The translations under genes were made by a program, and so were the position numbers. A model generated the notes under the pieces. That model saw only the letters and a list, made by a program, of their open reading frames with translations. It had not been told where the DNA came from and ran no database searches. Below, piece by piece: positions 18,761-64,000 of a stretch of DNA of 64,000 nt. The stretch covers positions 46,644,667 through 46,708,666 of the forward strand of contig CM031595.1 of NCBI GenBank assembly GCA_018398815.1, read 5' to 3'. Each line of letters starts with the position of its first letter. Within the stretch, counting starts at the first letter, position 1. Source of the stretch: Conus ventricosus. Its lineage: Eukaryota > Mollusca > Gastropoda > Neogastropoda > Conidae.

Positions 18761-20189
18761 GTCACATAGGCTAAAGATGTACAGCAAGAGGCGATGACGC
18801 CCCCTATGACTGACTATCCAGGCAAGTCAGCACCTAAGGTCGTTGCCAAGAAATTCTCCTCGCAGGTACCAAGCTTGCCTGCTACAGGCGTATACCTCCC
18901 CTTCACTCCCTCTTCCAGACTTGTAAGAAGCAGAGTGCAAAGTGGACGTCACAGTGTCAGACCACAGAGGTCTTGAATGGGCAGAAGACAGAACATGACT
19001 TGTTACACCACCTCTGCCCTAGTGCGCGTAACCAAAACAGGAGGATGTGAAGATCCCTGTTTCCCAAAGCGTCATGTCATGGCACCGCGATATCTATCAC
19101 CAGGATAACATCAAATCTTCTCATCCGCTTTCTTGTTCAGCATCAAAATTCTGCTCCATTGGGATGCTACCAGCTATGTCCAGTTACAACGCTGAAGCGC
19201 TACAGAACTGCGAAAATCGGCACACTTGCCCTTCAATGAGTTTCAGGGGTCTGGTTTATTTCCCCTACACCACTGTCATCAAACCAAACTCTTTCCTGGG
19301 TCCCTTAGGAAGTTGGCTGGATCAGAGCTGTGATTCGAGCCGTGAATATTAATTCAAAACTCTCATCAAGCAATAAAGGTCATGGTGTATAATGCCCCCA
19401 ACCTCAGAAAAGTTGTGTTCGATTTTTCCCCTGCAGTTTCTGCCCTCCTTGTTTTCCATGTTTAGATTCTTATTGTCGGGTTTTAATTTCATCCACCACA
19501 CCTTTTCCACAAAACCTGCATCCACCACACCTTTTCCACAAAACCTGCATCGAGTTTTCCTTTCCTCAGACTTGATGACTCTACGTTTTTAGTCTGACAC
19601 TCGAAGAGCTAAAACTGAACTAAAAGATGGGCACTGAAGTCTCGTGTGCCAGGGGGGGCAACAGGGGTGAGGGTGGGAAGGAAGGGAAAGCACAGAAGAC
19701 TTGTCGTGGGCGCAACGTTATCAGCCGTCTACAGTTTAATTGTCGAGATGAGGCTTTTTAGTTAGATTCATATCACCCCATCCAGCCACACAGCCAAACC
19801 ACAGGGCTTTCACTACACAGAGAATGGGCGTCTTGTCTTGAAAAGAACCATAACAACAGAAAACGAATGTCTACAAAATGTACATAAACTAATAACATAA
19901 GCTAAACTCTTGGCATGCTTAAGGCAGTCATGGGCAAGTCGCGAAACATGAGTATGAAAACATAGGAAACGTAAAGCGATAAACTAAAAGTGATACGCGA
20001 AAACAGGAAAGTTGAAATGATATAGCAAACTAGGAAAAACTGAAGTGAAACAGCAACACGTGAAACTTCAAGTGAGACCGCAAAATAGAAAACTTAAGAT
20101 AGAAAATTGAAAATTTAAAAAGTGATACAGCAAAATGGGAAAATTGAGGTGACATGGCTAAATAGGAAACCCAGCGGGACAGCAAAATT

Positions 20190-21255
20190 GCAAATTTAAA
20201 GTGAGACAGCAAACAGGAAACTTAAAGTGAGACAGCAAAAAAGGAAACTTAAAGTGAGACAGCAAAATAGGGAACTTAAAGTGAGACAGCAAAACAGGGA
20301 ACTTAAAGTGAGACAGCAAAATAGGAAACTTAAAAGTGAGACAGCAAAATAGGGAACTTAAAGTGAGACAGCAAAATAGGGAACTTAAAGTGAGACAGCA
20401 AAATAGGGAACTTAAAGTGAGACAGCAAAATAGGAAACTTAAAAGTGAGACAGCAAAATAGGGAACTTAAAGTGAGACAGCAAAATAGGGAACTTAAAGT
20501 GAGACAGCAAAACAGGGAACTTAAAGTGAGACAGCAAAACAGGGAACTTAAAGTGAGACAGCAAAACAGGGAACTTAAAGTGAGACAGCAAAACAGGGAA
20601 CTTAAAGTGAGACAGCAACACAGGGAACTTAAAGTGAGACAGCAACACAGGGAACTTAAAGTGAGACAGCAACACAGGGAACTTAAAGTGAGACAGCAAA
20701 ACAGGGAACTTAAAGTGAGACAGCAAAACAGGGAACTTAAAGTGAGACAGCAAAACAGGGAACTTAAAGTGAGACAGCAAAATAGGGAACTTAAAGTGAG
20801 ACAGCAAAACAGGGAACTTAAAGTGAGACAGCAAAATAGGGAACTTAAAGTGAGACAGCAAAACAGGGAACTTAAAATGAGACAGCAAAACAGGGAACTT
20901 AAAGTGAGACAGCAAAACAGGGAACTTAAAGTGAGACAGCAAAACAGGGAACTTAAAGTGAGACAGCAAAACAGGGAACTTAAAGTGAGACAGCAAAATA
21001 GGGAACTTAAAGTGAGACAGCAAAACAGGGAACTTAAAGTGAGACAGCAAAACAGGGAACTTAAAGTGAGACAGCAAAACAGGGAACTTAAAGTGAGACA
21101 GCAAAATAGGGAACTTAAAGTGAGACAGCAAAACAGGGAACTTAAAGTGAGACAGCAAAACAGGAAACTTAAAGTGAGACAGCAACACAGGAACTTAAAG
21201 TGAGACAGCAAAATAGGGAACTTAAAGTGAGACAGCAAAACAAGAAGCTCAAAGG
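20190..21255. repeat. 27-bp minisatellite, about 39 copies
   Basis: The monomer contains AACTTAAAGTGAGACAGC followed by a short variable part (AAAACAGGG, AAAATAGGG or AACACAGGG). The period is 27 nt, a multiple of three, so frames stay open for hundreds of codons on both strands (plus frame repeats RQQNRELKV, minus frames repeat LSSLFCCLT and LSHFKFPVL). Nearly all variation is at one C/T position and one A/C position, which is homogenised-array behaviour. The array lies where units II-IV have a single related GTGACACAGC or GAAACAGC stretch, so it expanded only in unit I. Translation is unlikely to be biological. Confidence 0.95.
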
Positions 21256-22030: not shown

Positions 22031-22125
22031 AGGTGGTTCAATTAGAGAGGTCTGCCGACCAGTTCTAGCCTTTTCCCGTACAGAGATCAGACTGCTTTTT
22101 CATTCACATACTTGTTCTACGAAAT

Positions 22126-22588
22126 ATGAGTGAGGCACTGGAGGGACATCAAGGCCCAATAAACATTGGCGGCAGCATAGTAACAAACCTACGCTTTGCC
22201 GATGACATCGACGGGCTAGCAGGCGAAGAGCAGGAACTAGCCAACCGAGCAGAGCGCCTTGACAAATGTTCTGCAGCATTCAGCAGGGAGATCAGCGCCG
22301 AAAAGACAAAACGTATGACCAACAACACCAACAGCATCGGCGCCAACATCGCTATCATGGGAGAAAAACTAGAGACATACCTCGGGGCAATTGTTTCAGA
22401 TGAGGGATCAAAACCTGAAGTGCTCTCCAGAATGGAGCAAACGTCAGCAGCGCTAGCCAGACTAAGACCCATCTGGAAGGACAGAAACATCACAATCAGT
22501 TCCAAGATCAGACTGATGCGCTCCCTGGTCATTGTCTTATGTCTCTATGCCTGTGAGACGTGGACTCTGATAGCTGAACTTGAGGACT

Positions 22589-22590
<2 letters not shown>
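22126..22590 (+). pseudogene. LINE reverse transcriptase fragment (palm to thumb)
   Basis: A 5'- and 3'-truncated non-LTR RT domain. The palm catalytic box reads LRFADDIDGLAGEEQELANR (YxDD variant FADD) near residue 25. It continues with a helix, EISAEKTK (residues 56-63), EVLSRMEQTSAALARL (residues 103-118), then KIRLMRSLVIVLCLYACETW (residues 133-152), the typical block after the palm in many RTE- or Jockey-like elements. The frame runs into a CT and AC microsatellite at 22587. No endonuclease or 3' UTR is attached. The element sits in the cluster that interrupts unit II. Confidence 0.85.
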
Positions 22591-22657
<67 letters not shown>

Positions 22658-22709
22658 GCACGCACAAACACACACACACACACACGTATCTATCTATCTA
22701 TATATATAT
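22587..22709. repeat. (CT)(CA)(TATC)(TA) compound microsatellite
   Basis: The tract directly abuts the LINE fragment on the left and the 633-bp tandem repeat on the right. Confidence 0.9.
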
Positions 22710-23106
22710 TCTTCAATCTAAGACATAAGAGCAAGCTTTGTTTATAATTCAATATTTCTTGCAGTCATTGCAACACCAAGCTGCTCTGTAAGTTGCTGGA
22801 ACGGTGCTCGGTACAAATCCTTGGAATTTATTAGTTTGTTGTATTTTAGTCCCTTGCGGATTCATTCCAAGAACTGGCCCTCAGCACTTGTGTCTTAGAG
22901 GATATCTTTTATATATTTTCTACTTTTCACAAGAAAATGTAGCTTGTTTTGCTCTTTCATGATTTTCTTTTGCTTCTTAGATGGCACCTTTGGTTGGTTT
23001 TTTGAAAACTCAACAAACATACTACAGTATTGCACACCAGCCTTTTCTGGGATTGCATTCTTCTTAAAACTGAAAAGGCAGAGGAGTCAAATTAACCACT
23101 TTCCGC

Positions 23107-23153
23107 GGTCACTGAGGAGAAACCACCAAGTTTCGAAATATCGGTATATGACC
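23107..23153 (+). ncRNA. Type I hammerhead ribozyme, copy 1
   Basis: All catalytic-core elements are present in order. Stem I strand GGTCA (23107-23111). Core CTGAGGA (23112-23118), matching CUGANGA. Stem II GAAAC (23119-23123), 6-nt loop, GTTTC (23130-23134). Core GAAA (23135-23138). Stem III is AUA pairing with UAU around a UCGG loop (23138-23147). Cleavage triplet ATA ends at 23148. Stem I return strand TGACC (23149-23153) pairs fully with GGTCA. A15.1-U16.1 pairing and H17 = A satisfy the NUH rule. Predicted cleavage follows 23148. The hammerhead is known to self-cleave by 2'-3' cyclic phosphate formation; activity here is inferred. Confidence 0.85.
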
Positions 23154-23739
23154 AGGAGTTATATGTTAGTGAGTTTCCCTCCCTATTGGGGATGTCTCTC
23201 CCCCTTGGAGAATATAAGCTTGCTGAAGGCTTATTTTGAGAAGCATTTATTTTTATTTTTCCCCATCCACCCACTCAAGCACATACTGTTAGTTAGGCAG
23301 AATCATCTGCCACTGCAGGTATGAATGCGTATCTCCCCCTATTTCTTCAATCTAAGACATAAGAGCAAGCTTTGTTTATAATTCAATATTTCTTGCAGTC
23401 ATTGCAACACCAAGCTGCTCTGTAAGTTGCTGGAACGGTGCTCGGTACAAATCCTTGGAATTTATTAGTTTGTTGTATTTTAGTCCCTTGCGGATTCATT
23501 CCAAGAACTGGCCCTCAGCACTTGTGTCTTAGAGGATATCTTTTATATATTTTCTACTTTTCACAAGAAAATGTAGCTTGTTTTGCTCTTTCATGATTTT
23601 CTTTTGCTTCTTAGATGGCACCTTTGGTTGGTTTTTTGAAAACTCAACAAACATACTACAGTATTGCACACCAGCCTTTTCTGGGATTGCATTCTTCTTA
23701 AAACTGAAAAGGCAGAGGAGTCAAATTACCACTTTCCGC

Positions 23740-23785
23740 GGTCACTGAGGAGAAACCACCAAGTTTCGAAATATCGTATATGACC
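23740..23785 (+). ncRNA. Type I hammerhead ribozyme, copy 2
   Basis: The same fold recurs in the second monomer: stem I GGTCA (23740-23744), CTGAGGA (23745-23751), stem II GAAAC/GTTTC (23752-23756 and 23763-23767), GAAA (23768-23771), stem III AUA/UAU with the loop shortened by one G (UCG), cleavage after A 23780, return strand TGACC (23781-23785). The one-base loss falls in the stem III loop, leaving all core residues intact. The predicted cut-to-cut RNA is 632 nt. Confidence 0.85.
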
Positions 23786-24019
23786 AGGAGTTATATGTTA
23801 GTGAGTTTCCCTCCCTATTGGAGGATGTCTCTCCCCCTTGGAGAATATAAGCTTGCTGAAGGCTTATTTTGAGAAGCATTTATTTTATTTTTCCCCATCC
23901 ACCCACTCAAGCACATACTGTTAGTTAGGCAGAATCATCTGCCACTGCAGGTATGAATGCGTATCTCCCCCTATTTCTTCAATCTAAGACATAAGAGCAA
24001 GCTTTGTTTATAATTCAAT

Positions 24020-24075
24020 ATATATATATATATATATATAATATATATATATACACACATACACACACACGCGCG
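24020..24075. repeat. (TA)n then (CA)n microsatellite
   Basis: TA tract at about 24019-24053, followed by ACAC and a short GCGC. Confidence 0.9.
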
Positions 24076-24238
24076 CAATAGTCTAAACACAGATGCAGAA
24101 ATGTGCACTCTTCGATGTTAAAGCCATAAAATAATGCAGTAATTGTCACCAAAAAGAAAGCCTCCCCACAACTGTCACATCTCAACTCCCTCCTCCCCTC
24201 CCCACTGCATATTCACTTCACCTCCTTCCCATCTGCAT

Positions 24239-29018: not shown

Positions 29019-30512
29019 CACACACAGAGCAGTGTTTATGAGAGAGGGGGAGCGAAAGGAAGAAACAAAGAGGCAGGCAGACAGAAAGACAGACTGACAG
29101 ACAGACACAGTCAAGAGGTAGAAGGGAGAGGGGGGGGGGGGTTGAGGCAGGGGAAAAGACAGCAAAAGAGGTCCCCCAACTTGGTTGGCATATTTAAGGG
29201 AAGATGGACAATGTACAAAGAATCCTTGACTCAAGACGCCGGGAAGGGAAAGAAATCGTTCACAGACACAAACGATCCACTCTGAGAAGCCCCAGTGCCA
29301 GCCAGTGCTATCGATGCTCCGCCTCCCAGGCGGAATAAAACATTAACGTTTTAACGATGTGACGCACTCTTCGTCCCCCTGAATGCGGAGATGATGTACA
29401 CATCTGGCCAGTCGGTGGGAAACGGTAGACGTGGTGGAAAAATGGAGTGCCTTGAAGGCATGTTTCATTCGCGCGACTCGAAAAAGCGTACTCGAGCACA
29501 TTACTTACTGAGGTTTTTAAGCTTGACCGGGCAGGAGGGGAGAGGAGTTTACGAGAGGAACAACGTAGCAGCGTAAAGAATATCACCACATAGGCCTACA
29601 CGACCATTTCTATTCCACGCCCCACAAAACAGTACAAATAAAGATTCCATTCAGATTCAAGACCTATATCAAACATATAAAAATGAAACGAACGGAAACA
29701 TTCTTTGTGCAAATAATCTCAAAACTATCAATCAAACAGTACAAAAATATGCTGTCCATTAATTCCCCCTGTCTTTCACCTTATCCTCACTATCAAGTAT
29801 CAGTAACAACCTATTTTCTTGTGCTTTGATTTAATTTTGGCTGGCATGAGCAGATTTCAAGATGAGTCCAACAGCATCATAGACTTAATTTTGTATATGC
29901 TCAACATCATTTTTCCCTGGCTCAAACGCACAGAAACGTTCTGATTATCCTGATACAATTTCAGTTCTGTATCATTCGTTTAATGTCACTAATACGTTAT
30001 CAAATAAAATTTCAAATTGTGTCAGTTCACTTAAACTTTGTGGTGCTTTTTGTGCTTATTTCAATTGACTACACCCACAGTCAGATCTGTGAAACGTCCC
30101 GGACTAGCTCATCGAACATTCACAAAAATACATGTCTATGCTTTTTGAACTGTCAATAAAATTGGACAGAGTGAATCAGACTTGTTTGCAGTCTGAGAAC
30201 TCTCTACTTCTTTCCGTTTGTTTCACCAAATACTGGTAGGATTTGATCAAGGCCAGATGATGTGTCTGTCTCTTTTGTCAAAAATCTATGAGGAAAAAAA
30301 ATATCTTTTTAAGTCTCGGAATGAAGTTCTGTGTATTTTCATGCATCCACTTATCTGTCACAATCTCATAACCCCTGATGTCAGTGTAGGCAATGAATCA
30401 GGTGAGGTTTTTTTTTTCTTTTTCAAAGTTCTGAGAGCGCTGTATACTTCATGTTTTTTCAAAAGGACAGACAACCTTTCTGACGCCAGGAGCTTGTAGT
30501 CCCCCCCCCCCA

Positions 30513-36384: not shown

Positions 36385-39300
36385 ATGCGCGCAGGGTGTA
36401 CTTGTCTATGGGTGGGTGGGAAAGGAGAGCAGAGGAAAAGAGAGGAGAGACAGACAGGGAACCGGAGAGAGAGAGAGAGAGGGAGAGATAGACAGACAGA
36501 CAAACAGAGGAGAGCGTGGTAGTAAGGATATGGTATGAAATGCCCGAACAGCGCTGTTACACTTAGGGGAAGATGGACAACATACAAAAAAATCCTTGAC
36601 TCAAGACGCCGGAAGGGAAATAACTTGTTCACAGACACAAACGATCCACTCGAGAAGCCCCAGTGCCAGCCAGTGCTATCGATGCTCCGCCTCCCAGACG
36701 GAATAAAACATTAACGTTTTAACGATGTGACGCACCCTTCCTCCTCCTGAATGCGGAGATGAAGTACGCGTCTGGCCACTCGATGGGAAACGGTAGATAT
36801 GGTGGAAAAATCGAATGTCGTGAAGGCATCCGTTTCATTCACGTGACTTAGAACCCTCTCGAGCACATCACACACTGGAGGAGAGAGAAATTTGTGGGAG
36901 GAATGACATGACAGTGTAACAGAACATCACCACCCATCCGACCATTCCTACTCCATGCCTCACAAAATAATACATGTGAAGATTCCATACAGATTCATGA
37001 CCTATGTCATGAACATCAAAATCGACGGAAATATTGTTTGTACAAAATAATCTCACAATTATGAGTCAATCAGTAGAAAATATACTGCCAATTAATTCCC
37101 TGTTGTCATCACTTCACCTCCTTTATCAATTGATGATAATAATAATTGTAAAAATAATAATAGTAATTAATAATAATACTAATAATGATGATAATGATGA
37201 TGATGATAATAATAATAATAATAATCTATTCAATTTTACACTGATGCTTTTTAGCTCTCACAGACAGATTTCAAGAGGAGACCAACAACTTGGAGACTAA
37301 ATGTAGCAGACTGTCAACATCATTTTTTTCCCTTTTTTAAACTCAGACTCACAGAAACGTTCTGACTATCCCCATACAAATAAGTTCAGTTCCGTACTAT
37401 TTGCTTGATGTCACTAATGCCAGCCAGTGCTATCGATGCTCCGCCTCCCAGACGGAATAAAACAACGTTTCAACGATGTGACGCACTCTTCCTTATTCTG
37501 AATGCGGAGATGAAATACACATCAGGCCACTCGGTAGGAAACGGCAGACATGGTGGAAAAATCGAGTGCCGTGAAAGCATCTGTTTAATTCACGTGACTT
37601 AAGCCCTCCCGAGCACATCGTATATTGAGGTGGGTTCATTTCAAATTAACTGGTCAGGGGGGATGGCTCCATCCCCCCCCCCCCCCCCCCCCCCACGCAC
37701 ACACATATATGCAAAGATGTCCACTCAAATTCAAGACCTATATCGTGAAAACAGACTCAAAATGAACAGAAATATTATTTGTACCAAATAGTTTCACACG
37801 CGCAAGTGAAGTGGTGCCAAACCGGCTGCATATTAATTCCCCCCTTTTGGTCACTTCATCCCCGCTATCAAGTAATAATTATAAAAAAAATAGTCTATTT
37901 TCACGCTGATTTGGTTTGCACTGGCATAAACTGATTTCAAGATGATACCAACAGTTTGTGAGACGTAATGCAGCAGATTCTCAACACCATTTTTTTTTCC
38001 TTTTTTTATAGTTCATACTCGGAGAAACGTTCTGACTATCCACATTAACAAGTTCAATTCTGTTCATTTGTCTCATGTCAGTAGCACGTTTTCGTTTGTT
38101 TTTTTTATTTTTATGTCAGTTCACTTAAACACTGTGGTGATTTTTATGCATACATAGATCAATCGTTCAATCGGTTATATAAACAGTCGGGTCAACGAAA
38201 CTTCCAGAAGTAGTTCTAGCCAATGCTCACAAAGCGGCAGTGCACGCTTCTGAACTGACAATAAAGTGGGTCATGTGGCGCCGAGTCGTCTGCACTCTGG
38301 GAACTTTCTACGTCTTTCCGTTTGCTAAAACAATTGGGGACTTTCTACGTCTTACCAATTGCTGAGATTTAATATTTGTATGTCTTGGACTGATGCCCTG
38401 CTCCTTTTCATGCGTCTCTTAACCTCTAATGTCAGTGCAGGCAATGAACCAACAACATTTCTTTCTCTTTTCCAAGTTTCTGAGAGCGCTGTACACTTTC
38501 TTTTTCAAATAAAGCACATCAAACGTTCTGACGTCGGGATTTAGCCCTTTTTTTTCGGTTCCTTTTTTTTATATCTTTCCCCCGTCTTTACTATTCAAAT
38601 TACAGCAATGCTCACGGCGGGACAGTCAGCAAAAATGAGGCCAAAAAGCCTTTGAGACAGAAAGGGAAATAACCGACAAGTCCCCCTTTCCCCCAATGTG
38701 GGCTGTTTGCTGCAGCTGGTCTCAACCCAACTTTTTTTCCATCAACTCGCCAACTCAAAGAAAAAACAAAAATCTCTAACCTACAGAAAAACCCCCTAGG
38801 CCCACCCAAACCCCATCCTCCTCCCACCCCACGCCCCCGCCCGACATCCTCCAGATCCCCCAAAGAGAAAAAGTCTTGGACAAACCTTCAACCCTGAAAT
38901 TGGCGGAAAAAATTATGACCTCCTGTCGTACGTTGCCTACCCAACGTGAAGGCTACGGCTGCAAAACAGGACCGCCACGAAGCAAGTCCCACAACACTGA
39001 AAAACAGACAGGGAAAGGAAAATTTCCCCTAAACCCCAAAACACAGGGGAAAAGAAAAGGAATACATTTCACTTGTAATTTACAATCAAACAGAACTTAT
39101 TAACTTTCATGATACATCCACATTTAACGTCCAGGGCCTTTTAAAAGTGAATATAACAGACAAGCAAAAACATCCCCCGGAGATTGGAGGGTAGACGGCC
39201 TAATCTAGCACAATCTCCAGAATGATACCACGTTATGATAGGCGGCAAAAAAACTTTAAACTTATACTTTGGGCGTCTTGGGATTCAAAATTCGCAACTC

Positions 39301-43840: not shown

Positions 43841-46800
43841 GTCTGTTGAGCCTCTACCACGACACCATGGCCATTTTCCCAGTCTGCTGCACTTCTTCCA
43901 CGCTGTCCTGGCCAGTCTTTTTCTGTCTGCTGCATCTCTGCCCCGACACCATGGCCACTTTTCCTGTTTATTTCCGTTACGACACCATGTCCAGTTTTCC
44001 TGAATGCTGTACCTCCACCTCAGTGCCATGACCTGTTTGCCTGTCTGTCGCATCTCCAACACAACACTGCGACAGGTTTTCCTGTCTGTGGCATCTCCAC
44101 ATAAACACTACGGCCGGTTTTCCTGTCTGGTGCATCTCCAACACAACACTATGGCCGGCTTTCCTGTCTGTTGCATCTCCAACACAACACCATGGCCGGC
44201 TTTCCTGTCTGTTGCATCTCCAACACAACACTATGGCCGGTTCTCCTGTCTGGTGAATCTCCAACACAACACTATGGCCGGTTTTCCTGTCTGTGCATCT
44301 CCAACACAACACCATGGCCGGCTTTCCTGTCTGTTGCATCTCCAACACAACACCATGGCCGGTTCTCCTGTCTGGTGAATCTCCAACACAACACTATGGC
44401 CGGTTTTCCTGTCTGGTGCATCTCCAACACAACACTATGGCCGGTTTTCCTGTCTGTTACATCTCCAACACAACACTATGGCCGGCTTTCCTGTCTGTTG
44501 CATCTCCAACACATCACCATGGCCGGCGTTCCTGTCTGTTGCATCTCCAACACAACACCATGGCCCGTTTTCCTGTCTGTTGCATCTCCAACACAACACC
44601 ATGGCCGGTTTTCCTGTCTTGTGCATCTCCAACACAACACCATGGCCGGTTTTCCTGTCTGTTGCATCTCCAACACAACACCATGGCCGGCGTTCCTGTC
44701 TGTTGCATCTCCAACACAACACCATGGCCGGCGTTCCTGTCTGTTGCATCTCCAACACAACACCATGGCCGGCTTTCCTGTCTGCGGCATATCCAACACA
44801 ACACTATGACCAGTTTTCCTGTCTGTTGTATCTCTACCATAACACCATGGCCGGCTTTCCTGTCTGTTGTATCTCTACCATAACACTATGGCCGGTTTTC
44901 CTGTCTGTTATATATCTCTACCACAGCACCACGGCTAGTTTTCCTATCGGCTGTGCTTCTTTCACCACACATTAACCACCACATTGGCCAGTTTTCCTCT
45001 CTGTTGTACTCCACCTTGACACTAAAAACCTGTTTTCCTGTCTGTTCTATCTCTAACACTACACCAAAACCTGCTTTCCTGTCTGTTCTCTCTCTACACT
45101 ACACCAAGACCTGTCTTGCTGTCTGGTCTATCTCTACCACTACACCAAGACCTGTTTTCCTGTCTGGTCTATACCACGACACCAAGACCTGTTTTCCTGT
45201 CTGGTCTATCTCTACCACGACACCAAGACCTGTTTTCCTGTCTGTTCTATCTCTACCACGACACCAAGACCTGTTTTTCTGTCTGGTCTATCTCTACCAC
45301 TACACCAAGACCTGTTTTCCTGTCTGGTCTATCTCTACCACTACACCAAGACCTGTTTTCCTGTCTGTTCTATCTCTACCACCACACCAAGACCTATTTT
45401 CCTGTCTGTTCTATCTCTACCACTACACCGCAGCCAGTGTTACTGTCTGCTGTACCTGTGACGATGCCTAATGGACAGTTTTCCTGGCTGCTGTACCTTC
45501 ACGAAGACATCGTGGTCATTGTTCCTGGCTGTTGTACCTTCACCAAGACATCGTGGTCATTGTTCCTGGCTTTTGTACCTTCACCAAGACATCGTGGTCA
45601 TTGTTCCTGGCTGTTGTACCTTCACCAAAACATCGTGGTCATTGTTCCTGGCTGCTGTACCTTCACCAAAACATCGTGGTCATTGTTCCTCTGATGGTGC
45701 CTTCACCAAAACATCGTGGTCATTTTTCCCTGGCTGTTGTACCTTCACCAAAACATCGTTGTCATTGTTCCTGGCTGTTGTACCTTCACCAAAACATCGT
45801 GGTCATTGTTCCTGCTGTTGTACCTTCACCAAAACATCGTGGTCATTGTTCCTGGCTGCTGTACCTTCACCGACATCGTGGTCATTGTTCCTGGCTGTTG
45901 TACCTTCACCAAGACATCGTGGTCATTGTTCCTCTCTGATCGCCTTCACCAAAACATCGTTGTCATTGTTCCTGGCTGTTGTACCTTCACCACGACATCG
46001 TGGTCATTGTTCCTGGCTGTTGTACATTCACCAAGACATCGTGGTCATTGTTCCTGGCTGTTGTACCTTCACCAAGACATCGTGGTCATTGTTGCTGGCT
46101 GTTGTACCTTCACCAAAACATCGTGGTCATTGTTCCTGGCTGTTGTACCTTCAAGACATCGTGGTCATTGTTCCTGGCTGTTGTACCTTCACCAAACATC
46201 GTGGTCATTGTTCCTGGCTGTTGTACCTTCACCAAAACATCGTGGTCAATGTTCCTCCTGATGTGCCTTCACCAAAACATCGTGGTCATTGTTCCTGGCT
46301 GCTGTACCTTCACCACGACATCGTGGTCATTGTTCCTGGCTGTTGTACCTTCACCAAGACATCGTGGTCATTGTTCCTCTCTGATGCGCCTTCACCAAAA
46401 CATCGTTGTCATTGTTCCTGGCTGTTGTACCTTCACCACGACATCGTGGTCATTGTTCCTGGCTGTTGTACATTCACCAAGACATCGTGGTCATTGTTCC
46501 TGGCTGTTGTACCTTCACCAAGACATCGTGGTCATTGTTGCTGGCTGTTGTACCTTCACCAAAACATCGTGGTCATTGTTCCTGGCTGTTGTACCTTCAA
46601 GACATCGTGGTCATTGTTCCTGGCTGTTGTACCTTCACCAAAACATCGTGGTCATTGTTCCTGGCTGTTGTACCTTCACCAAAACATCGTGGTCATTGTT
46701 CCTCTCTGATGTGCCTTCACCAAAACATCGTGGTCATTGTTCCTGGCTGTTGTACCTTCACCAAGACATCGTGGTCATTGTTCCTCTCTGATGTGCCTTC

Positions 46801-47040
46801 ACCAAAACATCGTGGTCATTGTTCCTGGCTGTTGTACCTTCACCAAAACATCGTGGTCATTGTTCCTGGCTGTTGTACCTTCACCAAAACATCGTGGTCA
46901 TTGTTCCTGTCCGATGTGCCTTCACCAAAACATCGTTGTTGTTGTTCCTGGCAGCTGTACCTTCACCAAGAAATCATGGTCATTGTTCCTGTCCATTGTA
47001 CCTTTACCCAGACATCATGGTCAGGTCTCCTGCACGCTGT
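43841..47040. repeat. 41-bp minisatellite superfamily, three successive subfamilies
   Basis: Three blocks share a 41-nt period and the pattern CTNCACC...CA--TGG--...TTCCTG. Block A (about 44040-44820) contains CATCTCCAACACAACACCAT and GGCCGGCTTTCCTGTCTG. Block B (44820-45450) contains TATCTCTACCACTACACCAA and GACCTGTTTTCCTGTCTG. Block C (45470-47030) contains GTACCTTCACCAAAACATCG and TGGTCATTGTTCCTGGCTG. Since 41 is not a multiple of 3 and the monomer has no stop in any plus frame, ORFs up to 412 codons run through it. A composite higher-order duplication of about 430 bp is visible within block C (45950-46250 repeats at 46400-46620). Confidence 0.95.
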
Positions 47041-51010: not shown

Positions 51011-51565
51011 TACACTCCAGGAAACCGTTCAAACCTCATGCAATCAGACCTGCGGCCCGCGAACTTGTACCGCCCACCACAACGACGATGCAGACAAGAC
51101 AGACAATAACAATCAGGACTGTCGCTTCGACTGCTCAAACAAGTCAGAGGGGAAGCTGGAAAAAGGTTGGTCAAGATGTGAAGACAGCATTCTTTTTGTG
51201 CCCAGTACACATGAAGGCCCAGCCCAGCTTTGCTGGACGTTTTGTTCTCGTTGGAGTGAAGGCGATTCTTTGTGGACATGATGCCATGGACCTGAAACAG
51301 TCCGCTGTGTTTGGAAGGGACAGGGCGAAATTAAGACTCTTAATCGTTTCAAACGCACAGCAACAGTGACACACGCCTTGTTTGCAATTGGGTTCAACCT
51401 ATCTTTTCCAACCATAAGGTTGAAATGTCTGGTGTGTAGCGGAGCCTTAACACATTTAAGTCCCCTGGGTAAGTCAGGGATCGCCACAGCCCTATTCCAT
51501 GCACAATAGGATAGATGTGCTGTGACTAGTGCAGTCCTTTTATAGTGTCTGTCCAGGACTTCTTT

Positions 51566-52073
51566 GGTCAACATGTGGAGCGGCCCACTGTTCCCTTGGA
51601 TTGGGAGTGATGGTCAACATGTGGAGCGGCCCACTGTTCCCTTGGATTGGGAGTGAAGGTCAACATGTGGAGCGGCCCACTGTTCCCTTGGATTGGGAGT
51701 GATGGTCAACATGTGGAGCGGCCCACTGTTCCCTTGGATTGGGAGTGATGGTCAACATGTGGAGCGGCCCACTGTTCCCTTGGATTGGGAGTGATGGTCA
51801 ACATGTGGAGCGGCCCACTGTTCCCTTGGATTGGGAGTGATGGTCAACATGTGGAGCGGCCCACTGTTCCCTTGGATTGGGAGTGATGGTCAACATGTGG
51901 AGCGGCCCACTGTTCCCTTGGATTGGGAGTGATGGTCAACATGTGGAGCGGCCCACTGTTCCCTTGGATTGGGAGTGATGGTCAACATGTGGAGCGGCCC
52001 ACTGTTCCCTTGGATTGGGAGTGATGGTCAACATGTGGAGCGGCCCACTGTTCCCTTGGATTGGGAGTCATGG
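51566..52073. repeat. 46-bp minisatellite, 11 nearly identical copies
   Basis: The monomer contains GGTCAACATGTGGAGCGGCC, CACTGTTCCCTTGGATTGGG and AGTGAT. Starts are every 46 nt from 51566 to 52026. Only one internal substitution (AGTGAAGG at about 51656) is seen, implying recent expansion. There are no spacers, so it is not CRISPR-like. Confidence 0.97.
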
Positions 52074-52299
52074 TCAGTTTCCTGCTCGTGCGGGGAAAGC
52101 TTACAGCTTTTAAAAACTGCGCGCCGAGATTCTTGTCAGCCAGCCGATGCGTTGACACTCTGCCACACGGTCGTTTTATGTTCCATTTAAGAATCAGTCC
52201 ACGGCGTTTTACTCTCGGTCGTCTTAACTCCCACGCGAAGCTCATAAGGAACTGACAACAGTGATCTGCTCTTGACTTGCATGTACTCACACACATGCG

Positions 52300-57231: not shown

Positions 57232-57369
57232 AAACTGTTTCATACACATTTCCGTCGTGTTCTAAACACAACTGTCTACTGGTCTTCTTGGAGTCCAAAC
57301 TGTTTCATACACATTTCCGTCGTGTTCTAAACACAACTGTCTACTGGTCTTCTTGGAGTCCAAACTGTT
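57232..57369. repeat. 65-bp tandem duplication abutting the LTR
   Basis: AAACTGTTTCATACACATTT starts at 57232 and again at 57297 with identical following sequence. A third start, AAACTGTT, at 57362 is cut by the LTR at 57370. Confidence 0.95.
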
Positions 57370-58983
57370 TGTCAACCTCGGTGTAATGTCAGTGGAGGAA
57401 GGACTAGCGCACAGCCCAAACACACTCACAGCTTGCTTACAATCTCATTCATATATCATGCATTCGTCACATCAAACCACTAGTAAAGTCTATAACTTTA
57501 CTATACATGATCATAGAAAGAACCTCAATGCATATAGAATCAAATGAAATAAAACATTCTCTCTTTCTGAACTTCACAAAATCATTTATCTAAAACATCA
57601 TTAACTAACCGGGTATAAACAGATTTCTACTTTACCTGGCCAGGTGATCTTAACTATTCACGAATCACTGTCTTTTCTTTTCTTTTCTTTTTCTTTCACT
57701 GTCACTTTCACAACACGACACAACTCCCGGCACTGGTGTTGGTCTGGTGGCGCCTGGTCAGGTGAGACTGTTGGCGTTGGTCTGTGGTTCTGCTTGGCGA
57801 AGTGACGCTGCCAGGTATGAGGTCGAACCCCGGTTAGGGTAGAACAGTGACTATCAACATCGATCTGTTCTCCTTTCTTTCTTCCTGCATTAAAGCATTG
57901 CACTCTCTCTCTCTCTCTCTCTCTTCTAGTCTGCTCTTATCAAATGGACATGGTTGCTTTTCTTTTCTTTTTTCTTTTCTTTCTTTTCTTCTTCATAAAT
58001 TAGCAACTCTTTCTCTCTCTCCACATCTCTCCTCAGTCCTTCCTTCCCAGACTATCTCATGCTAATCTCTCAACTTGGTTCTCTTCTCTCCTCATCTCTC
58101 TCTCTCTCTGCCCTTCTCTCCTGCAGAGCTCCATCAGAACCTCTCTCTCCCTCTCTCTCTCTATTCGTTCTTCCCCTCCTTCTCCCGTTCTCTCCCTCTC
58201 TCTGCCTTTTCCCTCGTGCAGAGACTACACCTAAAACCTCCTATCTCTCTGTCTCTGTTCGTTCTCATCTCCCTGCCTTCCTGTAGGCGAGAGCCTACTC
58301 TCCCGAACTCCTCCCTCTCTCTCTCTCTGTCTGTTCGTCTTCTTCCCTCGTTCTCCCGTTCTCTCACTCACGCATTCCTTTATTCGTTCCGATCTGCCCA
58401 AAAAACGGGCGAGTACCATTGGTCAGTATTTTTACCCCTGACCCCCGAGGTTGTCTCCCTCTAATTCCATTGGATGTTCAAATCATGACAGTCCCGTCTA
58501 CACGCCTTACTCTCTGTGGTGGTCAATTGGTCATTTAATTGATTAGCCAGATTTCACCCCCACCACACACAAACCTTCCCCCTTCCCTACTTCACTGGCG
58601 CGGTGTGGCTTAAGTGGTGGACACTGGTCAATCTAAATTGGCCAGCTGAGTCTGGGTAGGCACCACGACGTCGAGAAAACAATGACGTTGGTTCCACAAA
58701 GTGGCTAGATGAGCTTGAGCTCGGCTCTGCGACTCGTCTCGCTAGACATCGAGGCGTCGGTCAAAGCTGCTTAGCCCGTATAGCCGGACAGACCGTCTTC
58801 CTGAAGCCTCTCCGCTAAGCTTAATTGGCCGGACCCGACCATGGGCCCGTCTTTCTGACGCCTAGAATGTTTGAGTTTGGACTTAGGTCCGAACAAATTG
58901 ACTGGCGACTCCCAAGTTAGGTTGTTCCTCCCAAGTTAGGTTGTTTCCCCCAAGTTAGGTTGTTTCATTTTTTGTCCGTGACA
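57370..58983 (-). repeat. 3' LTR (1614 bp)
   Basis: The plus strand starts TGTCAACC and ends GTCCGTGACA, so the LTR has 5-bp inverted termini TGTCA/TGACA. Three 17-22 bp repeats with CAAGTTAGGTTGTT lie at 58911-58964, near the U3 end on the coding strand. The middle carries pyrimidine-rich tracts (57904-58350). A polypurine tract adjoins at 58984. It is nearly identical to the right-hand LTR apart from single-base indels and a few substitutions, implying a fairly recent insertion. Confidence 0.9.
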
Positions 58984-59556: not shown

Positions 59557-59925
59557 CTAGACTACACGACTTAAATAGTCAGCTCCGACATTCTGTCGAC
59601 CGGGAATTGTACTGCACTCGATACTGTAGGGCTGCAGTGCCAGTGCCCAACGCAGAACTCTGCTGTTTTTCAACTGCCCCTCCTGCAGGAATTTGAGTGG
59701 TTGGTGATCCGTCTCGATCACGAACTCTTTCCCATACAAGTATTTGTGGAACTTCTGCACGGCCCACACAACAGCTAAACCTCCTTCTCCACCGTTGCGT
59801 CCCCTTCTTCACACTTTGTCAACTTCCTGCTAGCATATCTCACAGGAAACTCGACTCCCTCATGCTCCTGCAACAAAAACTGCACCTATCCCACCCCCTG
59901 ATGCATCTGTCCGCAACAAAAATGG
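59557..59925 (-). pseudogene. RNase H domain of the LTR element
   Basis: The block starts with FLLRTDASGGGIGAVF (near 59920, first catalytic D), continues after frameshifts with VVWAVQKFHKYLYGKEFVIE (59766) and TDHQPLKFLQ (another catalytic D), and ends near 59560 with GRQNVGADYLSR, the usual end of Gypsy RNase H. One stop and one frameshift separate the first motif from the rest. No integrase follows; the polypurine tract and LTR come next after about 570 bp of non-coding DNA. Confidence 0.85.
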
Positions 59926-61559: not shown

Positions 61560-62032
61560 CTTCAGACTGAATCCCTTTTGGTTCCACTGCAGGTCGTTTC
61601 CCCTTTACGACCCTTATCCACCTCTTGCAAGGCTGCTGCCTTCTGGAACCTCATGCGACAATCCCTCGCCACATGTCCCTTCTTGTGACAAATGAAACAC
61701 CTAATGTCCTTTTGCCCTTCCTTCTGCCCCACCACTGGGTTTGCAGACTTTGCAGAAAACTCCCCTGGTCTCCTTGCACTCTTTCTCACCTGTGCCTAGC
61801 ACCTGTTTCTCCTGCACCTTCGTGCCCAAACGTGCCTCTCTATACACCTCTGCGAACTTCAACAACTCCCCTGCTGTCTCTGGCTGTCTCTCTTTCAAAT
61901 GTATGGTTAACTCAGGGCCGCAACCTGACAAAATCTGTTCTTTCATAACTAGCTCTTTCAATTCAGCGACCTCCTTCTCGTACCACTCAACTCTAATTGT
62001 TGTTCAATAGGGTGGTTCTTTTCTTCCGCCAT
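61560..62032 (-). pseudogene. Gag remnant with SCAN-like segment and CCHC zinc knuckle
   Basis: The likely start is the ATG at 62032-62030 (MAEEKNHPIEQQLE). After a frameshift comes a SCAN-like helical segment with MKEQILSGCGPELTIHLKER and ETAGELLKFAEVYREAR (61945-61850). A zinc knuckle CFICHKKGHVARDC (C-x2-C-x4-H-x4-C) lies at 61706-61665. Most of the N-terminal and central capsid is missing between start and SCAN-like part, shown by the spacing of under 30 codons. It would package RNA in an intact element. Confidence 0.8.
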
Positions 62033-62040
62033 TATATCTC

Positions 62041-62426
62041 TTTTTTTTTTTTTAACAAGATTTTATTACTACGACAGCCCAACTGGTGGTTTCCGACACG
62101 AGTGACGTAATAGCACAATCCTATGAATGATAATATTAGCTTGGGGGAACGTAATTAGTTTTTATAAGACGCCCAGCGCCTGACCCAACTATGAGAGCGA
62201 ATTATAGGAAATCTGTGCGAAATGAGTACTCTGGGGCTGAAATGCCAAGCCTAGTATTACTATCTTGGAAGCAATGCCAAGCCTAGTATTTAACTATCTT
62301 GGGAACATACAGTAAGACAACCCTTGTCTTAGGATTACAACACTTGAATCCCACCCAGCTTCCCCTCTGAGAAGTTGACAATTATAATAAAAGGGCCAGA
62401 ATATCCTGGCAGGCTCGCCAAAAAAT
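62041..62426 (-). other. Leader with candidate primer-binding site
   Basis: On the minus strand TGGCGAGCCTGCCAGGAT begins at 62420, six bases inside the 5' LTR border. It starts with TGG as a tRNA 3' CCA complement should. I cannot name the tRNA. A T-run (62040-62052) marks the other end of the leader. Confidence 0.55.
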
Positions 62427-64000
62427 TGTCAACCTCGGTGTAATGTCAGTGGAGGAAGGACTAGCGCACAGCCCAAACACACTCACAGCTTGCTTACAAT
62501 CTCATTCATATATCAATTTCATTCGTCACATCAAACCACTAGTAAAGTCTATAACTTTACTATACATGATCATAGAAAGAACCTCAATGCATATAGAATC
62601 AAATGAAATAAAACATTCTCTCTTTCCCGAACTTCACAAAATCATTTATCTAAAACATCATTAACTAACCCGGGTATAAACAGATTTCTACTTTACCTGG
62701 CCAGGTGATCTTAACTATTCACGAATCACTGTCTTTTCTTTTCTTTTCTTTTTCTTTTCACTGTCACTTTCACAACACGACACAACTGCCGGCACTGGTG
62801 TTGGTCTGGTGGCGCCTGGTCAGGTGAGACTGTTGGCGTTGGTCTGTGGTTCTGCTTGGCGAAGTGACGCTGCCAGGTATGAGGTCGAACCCCGGTTAGG
62901 GTTAGAACAGTGACTATCAACATCGATCTGTTCTCCTTTCTTTCTTCCTGCATTAACGCATTTGCACTCTCTCTCTCTCTCTCTCTCTTCTAGTCTGCTC
63001 TTATCAAATGGACATGGTTGCTTTTCTTTTCTTTTTTCTTTTCTTTCTTTTCTTCTTCATAAATTAGCAACTCTTTCTCTCTCTCCACATCTCTCCTCAG
63101 TCCTTCCTCTGCAGACTATCTCATGCTAATCTCTCAACTTGGTTCTCTTCTCTCCTCATCTCTCTCTCTCTCTGCCCTTCTCTCCTGCAGAGCTCCACTC
63201 AGAACCTCTCTCTCCCTCTCTCTCTCTATTCGTTCTTCCCCTCCTTCTCCCGTTCTCTCCCTCTCTCTGCCTTTTCCCTCGTGCAGAGACTACACCTAAA
63301 CCTCCTCATCTCTCTGTCTCTGTTCGTTCTCATCTCCCTGCCTTCCTGTAGGCGAGAGCCTACTCTCCCGAAAATCCTCCCTCTCTCTCTCTCTGTCTGT
63401 TCGTCTTCTTCCCCTCGTTCTCCCGTTCTCTCACTCACGCATTCCTTTATTCGTTCGATCTGTCCAAAAACGGGCGAGTACCATTGGTCAGTATTTTTAC
63501 CCCCGACACCCGAGGTTGTCTCCCTCTAATTCCATTGGATGTTCAAATCATGACAGTCCCGTCTACACGCCTTACTCTCTGTGGTGGTCAATTGGTCATT
63601 TAATTGATTAGCCAGATTTCACCCCACCCACACACTACCTTCCCCCCTTCCCTACTTCACTGGCGCGGTGTGGCTTAAGTGGTGGACACTGGTCAATCTA
63701 AATTGGCCAGCTGAGTCTGGGTAGGCACCACGACGTCCGAGTAACAATGACGTTGGTTCCACAAAGTGGCTAGATGAGCTTGAGCTCGGCTCTGCGACTC
63801 GTCTCGCTAGACATCGAGGCGTCGGTCAAAGCTGCTTAGCCCGTATAGCCGGACAGACCGTCTTCCTGAAGCCTCTCCGCTAAGCTTAATTGGCCGGACC
63901 CGACCCATGGGCCCGTCTTTCTGACGCCTAGAATGTTTGAGTTTGGACTTAGGTCCGAACAAATTGACTGGCGACTCCCCAAGTTAGGTTGTTCCTCCCA
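62427..64000 (-). repeat. 5' LTR (partial, cut by window end)
   Basis: Begins TGTCAACC at 62427 and follows the left LTR to its base at about 58942. About 40 bases, including the outer terminus, lie beyond the window. Differences from the left LTR are mostly one-base indels (for example near 62514, 62626 and 62670). Confidence 0.9.

Follow-up and report, generated by a model that had tools for sequence, protein, structure and literature searches.

A tandem repeat with type I hammerhead motifs in Conus ventricosus as a putative animal retrozyme

A head-to-tail array of two repeat units and a partial third was found at 22709-24021 of a 64,000-nucleotide stretch of Conus ventricosus DNA, referred to here as the window. 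With a well-formed motif for a self-cutting RNA in each full unit, the array looks, judged by its sequence, like one more putative animal retrozyme, a small mobile element that spreads by way of RNA, and is larger than most described. We consider it probable that the array arose by the recent insertion of a small element of the animal (non-LTR) retrozyme type that is non-coding and non-autonomous. A Penelope-like reverse transcriptase would probably have moved it. The original prediction had named a retrozyme or a Penelope-like repeat. The tandem type I hammerheads and the non-coding units keep this as the best reading, while a negative Rfam search counts against it. The suggestion of a new family, also made there, goes further than the evidence does.

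A head-to-tail array of near-identical units

Unit 1 (22709-23342, plus strand, 634 bp) was delimited by alignment to unit 2 (23343-23974, plus strand, 632 bp, G+C 0.39). The units adjoin directly, with neither an ORF nor a unique region between them, and are followed on the same strand by a partial third unit, or tail (23975-24021, 47 bp), which is identical to the unit start. The tail length is best given as 43-47 bp, as its final 4 bp are indistinguishable from the (TA)n flank. Alignment of the two units gave 631 matches, no substitutions, and four single-base indels. The tandem repeat first recognized from the sequence was thus borne out. Its monomer size of 633 bp is corrected to 634 and 632 bp, and the base missing from the stem III loop, once taken as the sole difference between the copies, is one of four. 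No further copies of the unit were found in the 64-kb window by blastn at E up to 10, where the other 15 matches were all 26 bp or shorter.

Sequencing error was considered as the cause of the indel-only differences. A pair of direct repeats of about 1.57 kb at 57369-58933 and 62426-64000, which we take below for LTRs, served as the comparison; their alignment of 1580 columns has 1545 matches, 15 substitutions, and 19 indel events. Since this LTR pair in the same window is also rich in indels, it is unexceptional that all four differences between the units are indels. Each unit has one TATA-like stretch on the plus strand, and no Pol III internal boxes were found in the unit by simple consensus.

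Each unit carries a type I hammerhead motif

The motif of unit 1 lies at 23107-23153 on the plus strand. It is made of helix I (23107-23111/23149-23153), CTGAGGA (23112-23118), helix II (23119-23123/23130-23134), GAAA (23135-23138), and helix III with AUA (23138-23148), and its cut is predicted after 23148. The motif of unit 2 lies at 23740-23785, also on the plus strand, with the cut predicted after 23780 and a helix III loop that is one G shorter. The predicted cuts are 632 nt apart and fall at the positions proposed earlier. Both units read GGTCA / CTGAGGA / GAAAC-CACCAA-GTTTC / GAAA / helix III / AUA / TGACC, which confirms the anatomy described at the outset (a perfect 5-bp stem I, CTGAGGA, a 5-bp stem II with a 6-nt loop, GAAA, and ATA) and matches exactly the type I order of CUGANGA, helix II, GAAA, helix III, NUH, and helix I. 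Helix III has 3 bp, to which a U.G pair would add a fourth in copy 1. With regard to the helix I/loop II tertiary contacts of canonical motifs, helix I of unit 1 could be extended (23101-23158, plus strand) by UUCC/GGAG beyond a GC/A internal loop, which would add 4 bp including one U.G; the same extension is possible in unit 2 at 23734-23790. No hammerhead was found on the minus strand by descriptor.

The chance of finding such a motif was estimated with a relaxed descriptor (helices of 4, 4, and 3 bp) and a strict one (5, 5, and 3 bp). First-order Markov-simulated windows, 100 in number and searched on both strands, gave a mean of 0.02 relaxed matches per window and no strict match. On the real window, 716 decoy descriptors with permuted cores gave 5 relaxed matches in total and no strict ones, again on both strands. 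A hammerhead motif is therefore unlikely to occur by chance in such a window. Because a whole genome amounts to many windows, the case also rests on the position of the motif within a retrozyme-like tandem dimer. The same observations bear on a simpler explanation, that the array is an ordinary tandem duplication or small non-coding satellite whose hammerhead-like sequence is inactive. We regard this as quite unlikely: the strict motif was absent from all simulated windows and decoys, and the real motif lies within a head-to-tail dimer of retrozyme-like make-up.

Covariance models

The covariance check proposed with the original prediction came out below threshold. No Rfam hammerhead reached the gathering threshold anywhere in the window, and none appeared at E up to 10 over 22600-24200 or 23720-23830. 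The Rfam matches of other kinds in these two intervals (seven and three, respectively) were all below gathering and were taken as chance; three of the seven were microRNA models on the TA/CA tract.

The sensitivity of Rfam was checked on six loci picked from 124 viral-contig loci with hammerhead-like sequences. Of the 29 descriptor-positive motifs in the picked loci, 3 reached the gathering threshold, and one of these did so as type III. The viral-contig loci L012, L065, L092, L102, L112, and L115 hold four to nine descriptor-positive hammerheads each, and of the 23 in L065, L102, and L115, 1 reached the threshold. Since so few descriptor-positive motifs pass the threshold, the silence of Rfam was not treated as a refutation.

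A purpose-built covariance model was also made from 46 of the 126 viral-contig descriptor matches, selected for diversity and length. The window motifs scored 10.3 and 10.2 bits with this model (E 1.4 and 1.5) and ranked 7 and 10 of 17 matches, under five partial matches and level with three. Among the best 10 of the 17, only the two window motifs aligned all three helices and both core strands; in the other eight, the match was confined to helix I and some or all of the first core strand. The alignments of the window motifs nevertheless hold only two explicit pairs in helix II and one in helix III. A low score was to be expected because helix III is generally longer in the viral training motifs and their position 7 is mostly T; among the 126 viral descriptor matches, this position is T in 104 cases and G in 1. 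The result with this model is weak, not positive. Both the silence of Rfam and the weak viral-model score would suit an inactive sequence in an ordinary duplication, whereas the alignment of all three helices in these two alone among the best 10 matches speaks against it.

Predicted folding

The hammerhead fold of a single copy was predicted at -4.3 kcal/mol for unit 1, which is 6.7 above the minimum of -11.0, and at -3.9 kcal/mol for unit 2, which is 4.4 above the minimum of -8.3. This unfavorable single-copy fold is a further point for an ordinary duplication with an inactive motif. With 30-nt flanks, the pairs of helices I and II in unit 1 had probabilities of 0.98-0.99, except for one closing pair at 0.45, and those in unit 2 only 0.24-0.28. 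The pair probability of helix III was 0.0 in both units.

Folding as a pair of copies was considered as well. The helix III strand of unit 1, AUAUCGGUAU, is self-complementary if two G.U pairs are included, and two copies of unit 1 could therefore form a continuous helix III of 10 bp. As a double hammerhead with itself, unit 1 was predicted at -23.7 kcal/mol against a cofold minimum of -24.0. The corresponding values were -16.4 against -20.0 for unit 2 with itself and -14.6 against -21.3 for unit 1 with unit 2, the copies as assembled. By our estimate, chance alone would make a helix III of 3 bp with a loop of 4 nt fully self-complementary about once in seven cases, and this feature is thus a lead rather than proof. 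Two-copy folding is described for newt and Penelope hammerheads in reviews (PMC6155905, PMC7761336).

As a circle, the unit was predicted to have 59-60% of its bases paired. This falls short of the more than 70% published for retrozymes (PMC4918200). Against 60 shuffles for each strand, the circular fold of unit 2 had z scores of -1.9 on the plus strand and -2.1 on the minus strand.

Array ends and a possible route of insertion

The array lies between (TA)n tracts. On the 5' side, (TA)n at 22699-22708 terminates a compound CA/TATC/TA microsatellite, and on the 3' side, (TA)n at 24018-24053 is followed by a CA-rich microsatellite. Because both flanks are (TA)n, a target-site duplication cannot be distinguished. 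The ends of the array (22709 and 24021) do not coincide with the predicted cut sites; relative to the cut in unit 2, the unit end is 194 nt past and the tail end 241 nt past. The non-whole copy number and the ends away from the cuts argue against a cut linear monomer as the inserted form. The array ends are consistent with copying of a circle, or of a multi-unit transcript, from an internal start. A random end would leave a tail no longer than 47 bp in about 7% of cases (47/632), and so the short tail is weak, suggestive evidence only.

Properties of Penelope-like elements agree with such a route. In vitro, a purified anole Penelope-like protein starts internally on its RNA and prefers AT-rich DNA; the ends it produces agree with the known tail, and its main substrate is unprocessed RNA (PMC11167929). 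Insertions of these elements carry a 'tail' (PMC11167929), for which a length of 31 bp is on record in a rotifer Penelope element (PMC3846280). In the same rotifer, unrelated sequence between pseudo-LTRs was mobilized in trans (PMC3846280). Penelope-like elements have been proposed to move animal retrozymes (PMC7229834).

From these features we infer the following course of transcription, cleavage, circularization, and mobility with a helper enzyme. Transcripts through both units would fold into hammerheads. Given the weakness of helix III in a single copy, a two-copy (dimeric) ribozyme is the most likely form. Cuts after 23148 and 23780 would release a 632-nt RNA, which a host ligase could close. 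Reverse transcription would then start not at the cut but inside the unit, about 190-240 nt downstream, and would run through about 2.07 unit lengths of the circle or of a multi-unit transcript. The product would be inserted into the (TA)n tract. The enzyme that moved it would probably be a Penelope-like reverse transcriptase.

Coding capacity and Penelope-like elements

The longest M-ORF on the circular unit has 121 aa in unit 1, where it spans the predicted cut. In unit 2, an indel disrupts this frame and the longest M-ORF has 51 aa. There is no long ORF common to both units, and the earlier description of the repeat as non-coding therefore stands. A Pfam scan of the window at E 0.01 covered all 214 stop-free frames that were 75 aa or longer and passed a complexity filter. 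None of these frames gave a GIY-YIG match, and one gave a weak match to RVT_1 (E 0.0093). Other frames matched an RNase H-like domain (1.8e-16), zinc knuckles, and zf-RVT (0.00026) in Pfam; a handful of further weak matches were taken for chance. A Pfam scan of an initial nine ORFs had given no match. There was thus no sign of a Penelope element among the scanned frames.

These results bear on another possibility, in which the array would consist of pseudo-LTRs, or of sequence derived from them, that belong to an autonomous Penelope-like element whose ORF is lost or elsewhere. The ribozyme would then be the usual minimal hammerhead of Penelope. The array resembles Penelope-like elements and their hammerhead-bearing pseudo-LTRs in several ways, as these are described in the literature (PMC11167929, PMC3846280): the tandem organization, a weak helix III with potential for dimeric folding, the AT-rich site, and a short tail of similar length to those of Penelope pseudo-LTRs. 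In contrast, neither GIY-YIG nor a clear reverse transcriptase ORF was found among the scanned frames, and the RNase H and zinc-knuckle matches in the window fit a Gypsy-like element instead. The units directly adjoin, with no ORF between them, and are longer than the Penelope pseudo-LTRs used for comparison, which measure about 180-220 bp (PMC3846280). The anole element is cut 26 bp inside its ORF (PMC11167929), whereas here the frame that spans the predicted cut is broken in unit 2. Penelope motifs are also said in reviews usually to have no helix III, while the motif of the array has 3-4 bp. Taken together, an autonomous Penelope-like origin appears unlikely.

A separate proposal joins the two kinds of element. 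The array would be a 632-nt retrozyme with no ORF that has a Penelope-like, dimer-dependent hammerhead and Penelope-like marks of integration, namely the AT tract, the short tail, and the ends away from the cut. In that case it might link Penelope pseudo-LTRs directly to animal retrozymes as an intermediate form, and a Penelope enzyme that works in trans on the circular RNA would move it. We offer this tentatively, as a possibility on the doubtful side.

Relation to known hammerhead-bearing repeats

A non-autonomous element of the animal retrozyme kind, our preferred reading, was compared with published systems as presented in the portions of the literature covered. Metazoan non-LTR retrozymes (Cervera and de la Pena 2020, PMC7229834) share with the array the type I hammerhead, the head-to-tail units, a low G+C content (below 50%; 0.39 here), the lack of coding capacity, and the lack of LTRs. 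The array differs from them in its longer unit and lower predicted self-pairing (PMC7229834, PMC4918200). Animal repeats with type I hammerheads are reported at 150-450 bp and animal retrozyme RNAs at about 170-400 nt (PMC7229834). At 632-634 bp, the monomer exceeds this published range, in agreement with the original remark that known animal retrozymes are mostly shorter; the range of 150-450 bp is descriptive and not a functional criterion. No animal retrozyme unit above 600 bp was noticed in the covered part of the literature on retrozymes, Penelope-like elements, and hammerhead satellites.

The size of the unit falls inside the 600-800 nt of plant retrozyme circles (PMC7229834). This would suit a plant-type LTR retrozyme, or another LTR element with hammerhead-bearing LTRs. 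Such an origin is nonetheless very improbable, for the topology is type I, not type III, and a unique region between the units is absent.

Tandem repeats with type I hammerheads are also found in the W-elements/SMalpha of Schistosoma mansoni (PMC8490949). The W-elements have active hammerheads in satellites, and 3 of 5 tested candidates cleaved in vitro as predicted (PMC8490949). Unlike the array, they form large satellite arrays, and the W27.2 monomer is 403 bp (PMC8490949). The pDo500 satellite of cave crickets is likewise a tandem satellite with a hammerhead-like structure, but its family is present in the genomes of all species studied; it was compared by description only (PMC2808323). Exact patterns of the unit and of the motif had no matches in viral contigs and genome contigs. 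Since these collections are viral and prokaryotic, the absence of relatives there says little.

The array bears on whether animal hammerheads yield circular RNAs of more than 600 nt. As a presumably young copy that ends in an AT tract away from the cut, it would allow a test of internal-start reverse transcription of a circle.

Surrounding sequences in the window

Just upstream of the array, a plus-strand frame at 22069-22725 appeared by eye to hold a remnant of a LINE-type reverse transcriptase (..FADDIDGLAG..; 22069-22600). A sequence search of 22069-22725 against solved structures gave no reverse transcriptase, and the best matches (E 0.059 and 0.15) were unrelated. At the other end of the window, RNase H and zinc-knuckle sequences were placed by eye on the minus strand at 59560-59808 and 61565-61795. 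They sit between the direct repeats of about 1.57 kb, which suggests a Gypsy-like LTR element. Its right repeat reaches the window end, and its frames are apparently broken.

The window is rich in unrelated tandem arrays, which is again compatible with an ordinary duplication. A 27-bp minisatellite at 20178-21242 has 39 copies with 96% matches and long open frames on both strands. Eleven near-identical copies of a 46-bp minisatellite occupy 51565-52076, and long arrays of diverged 41-bp units extend over 43851-47023. A dispersed repeat of 178 bp was also seen at 29284-29461, 36652-36829, and 37403-37580, the second copy being 92% and the third 67% like the first.
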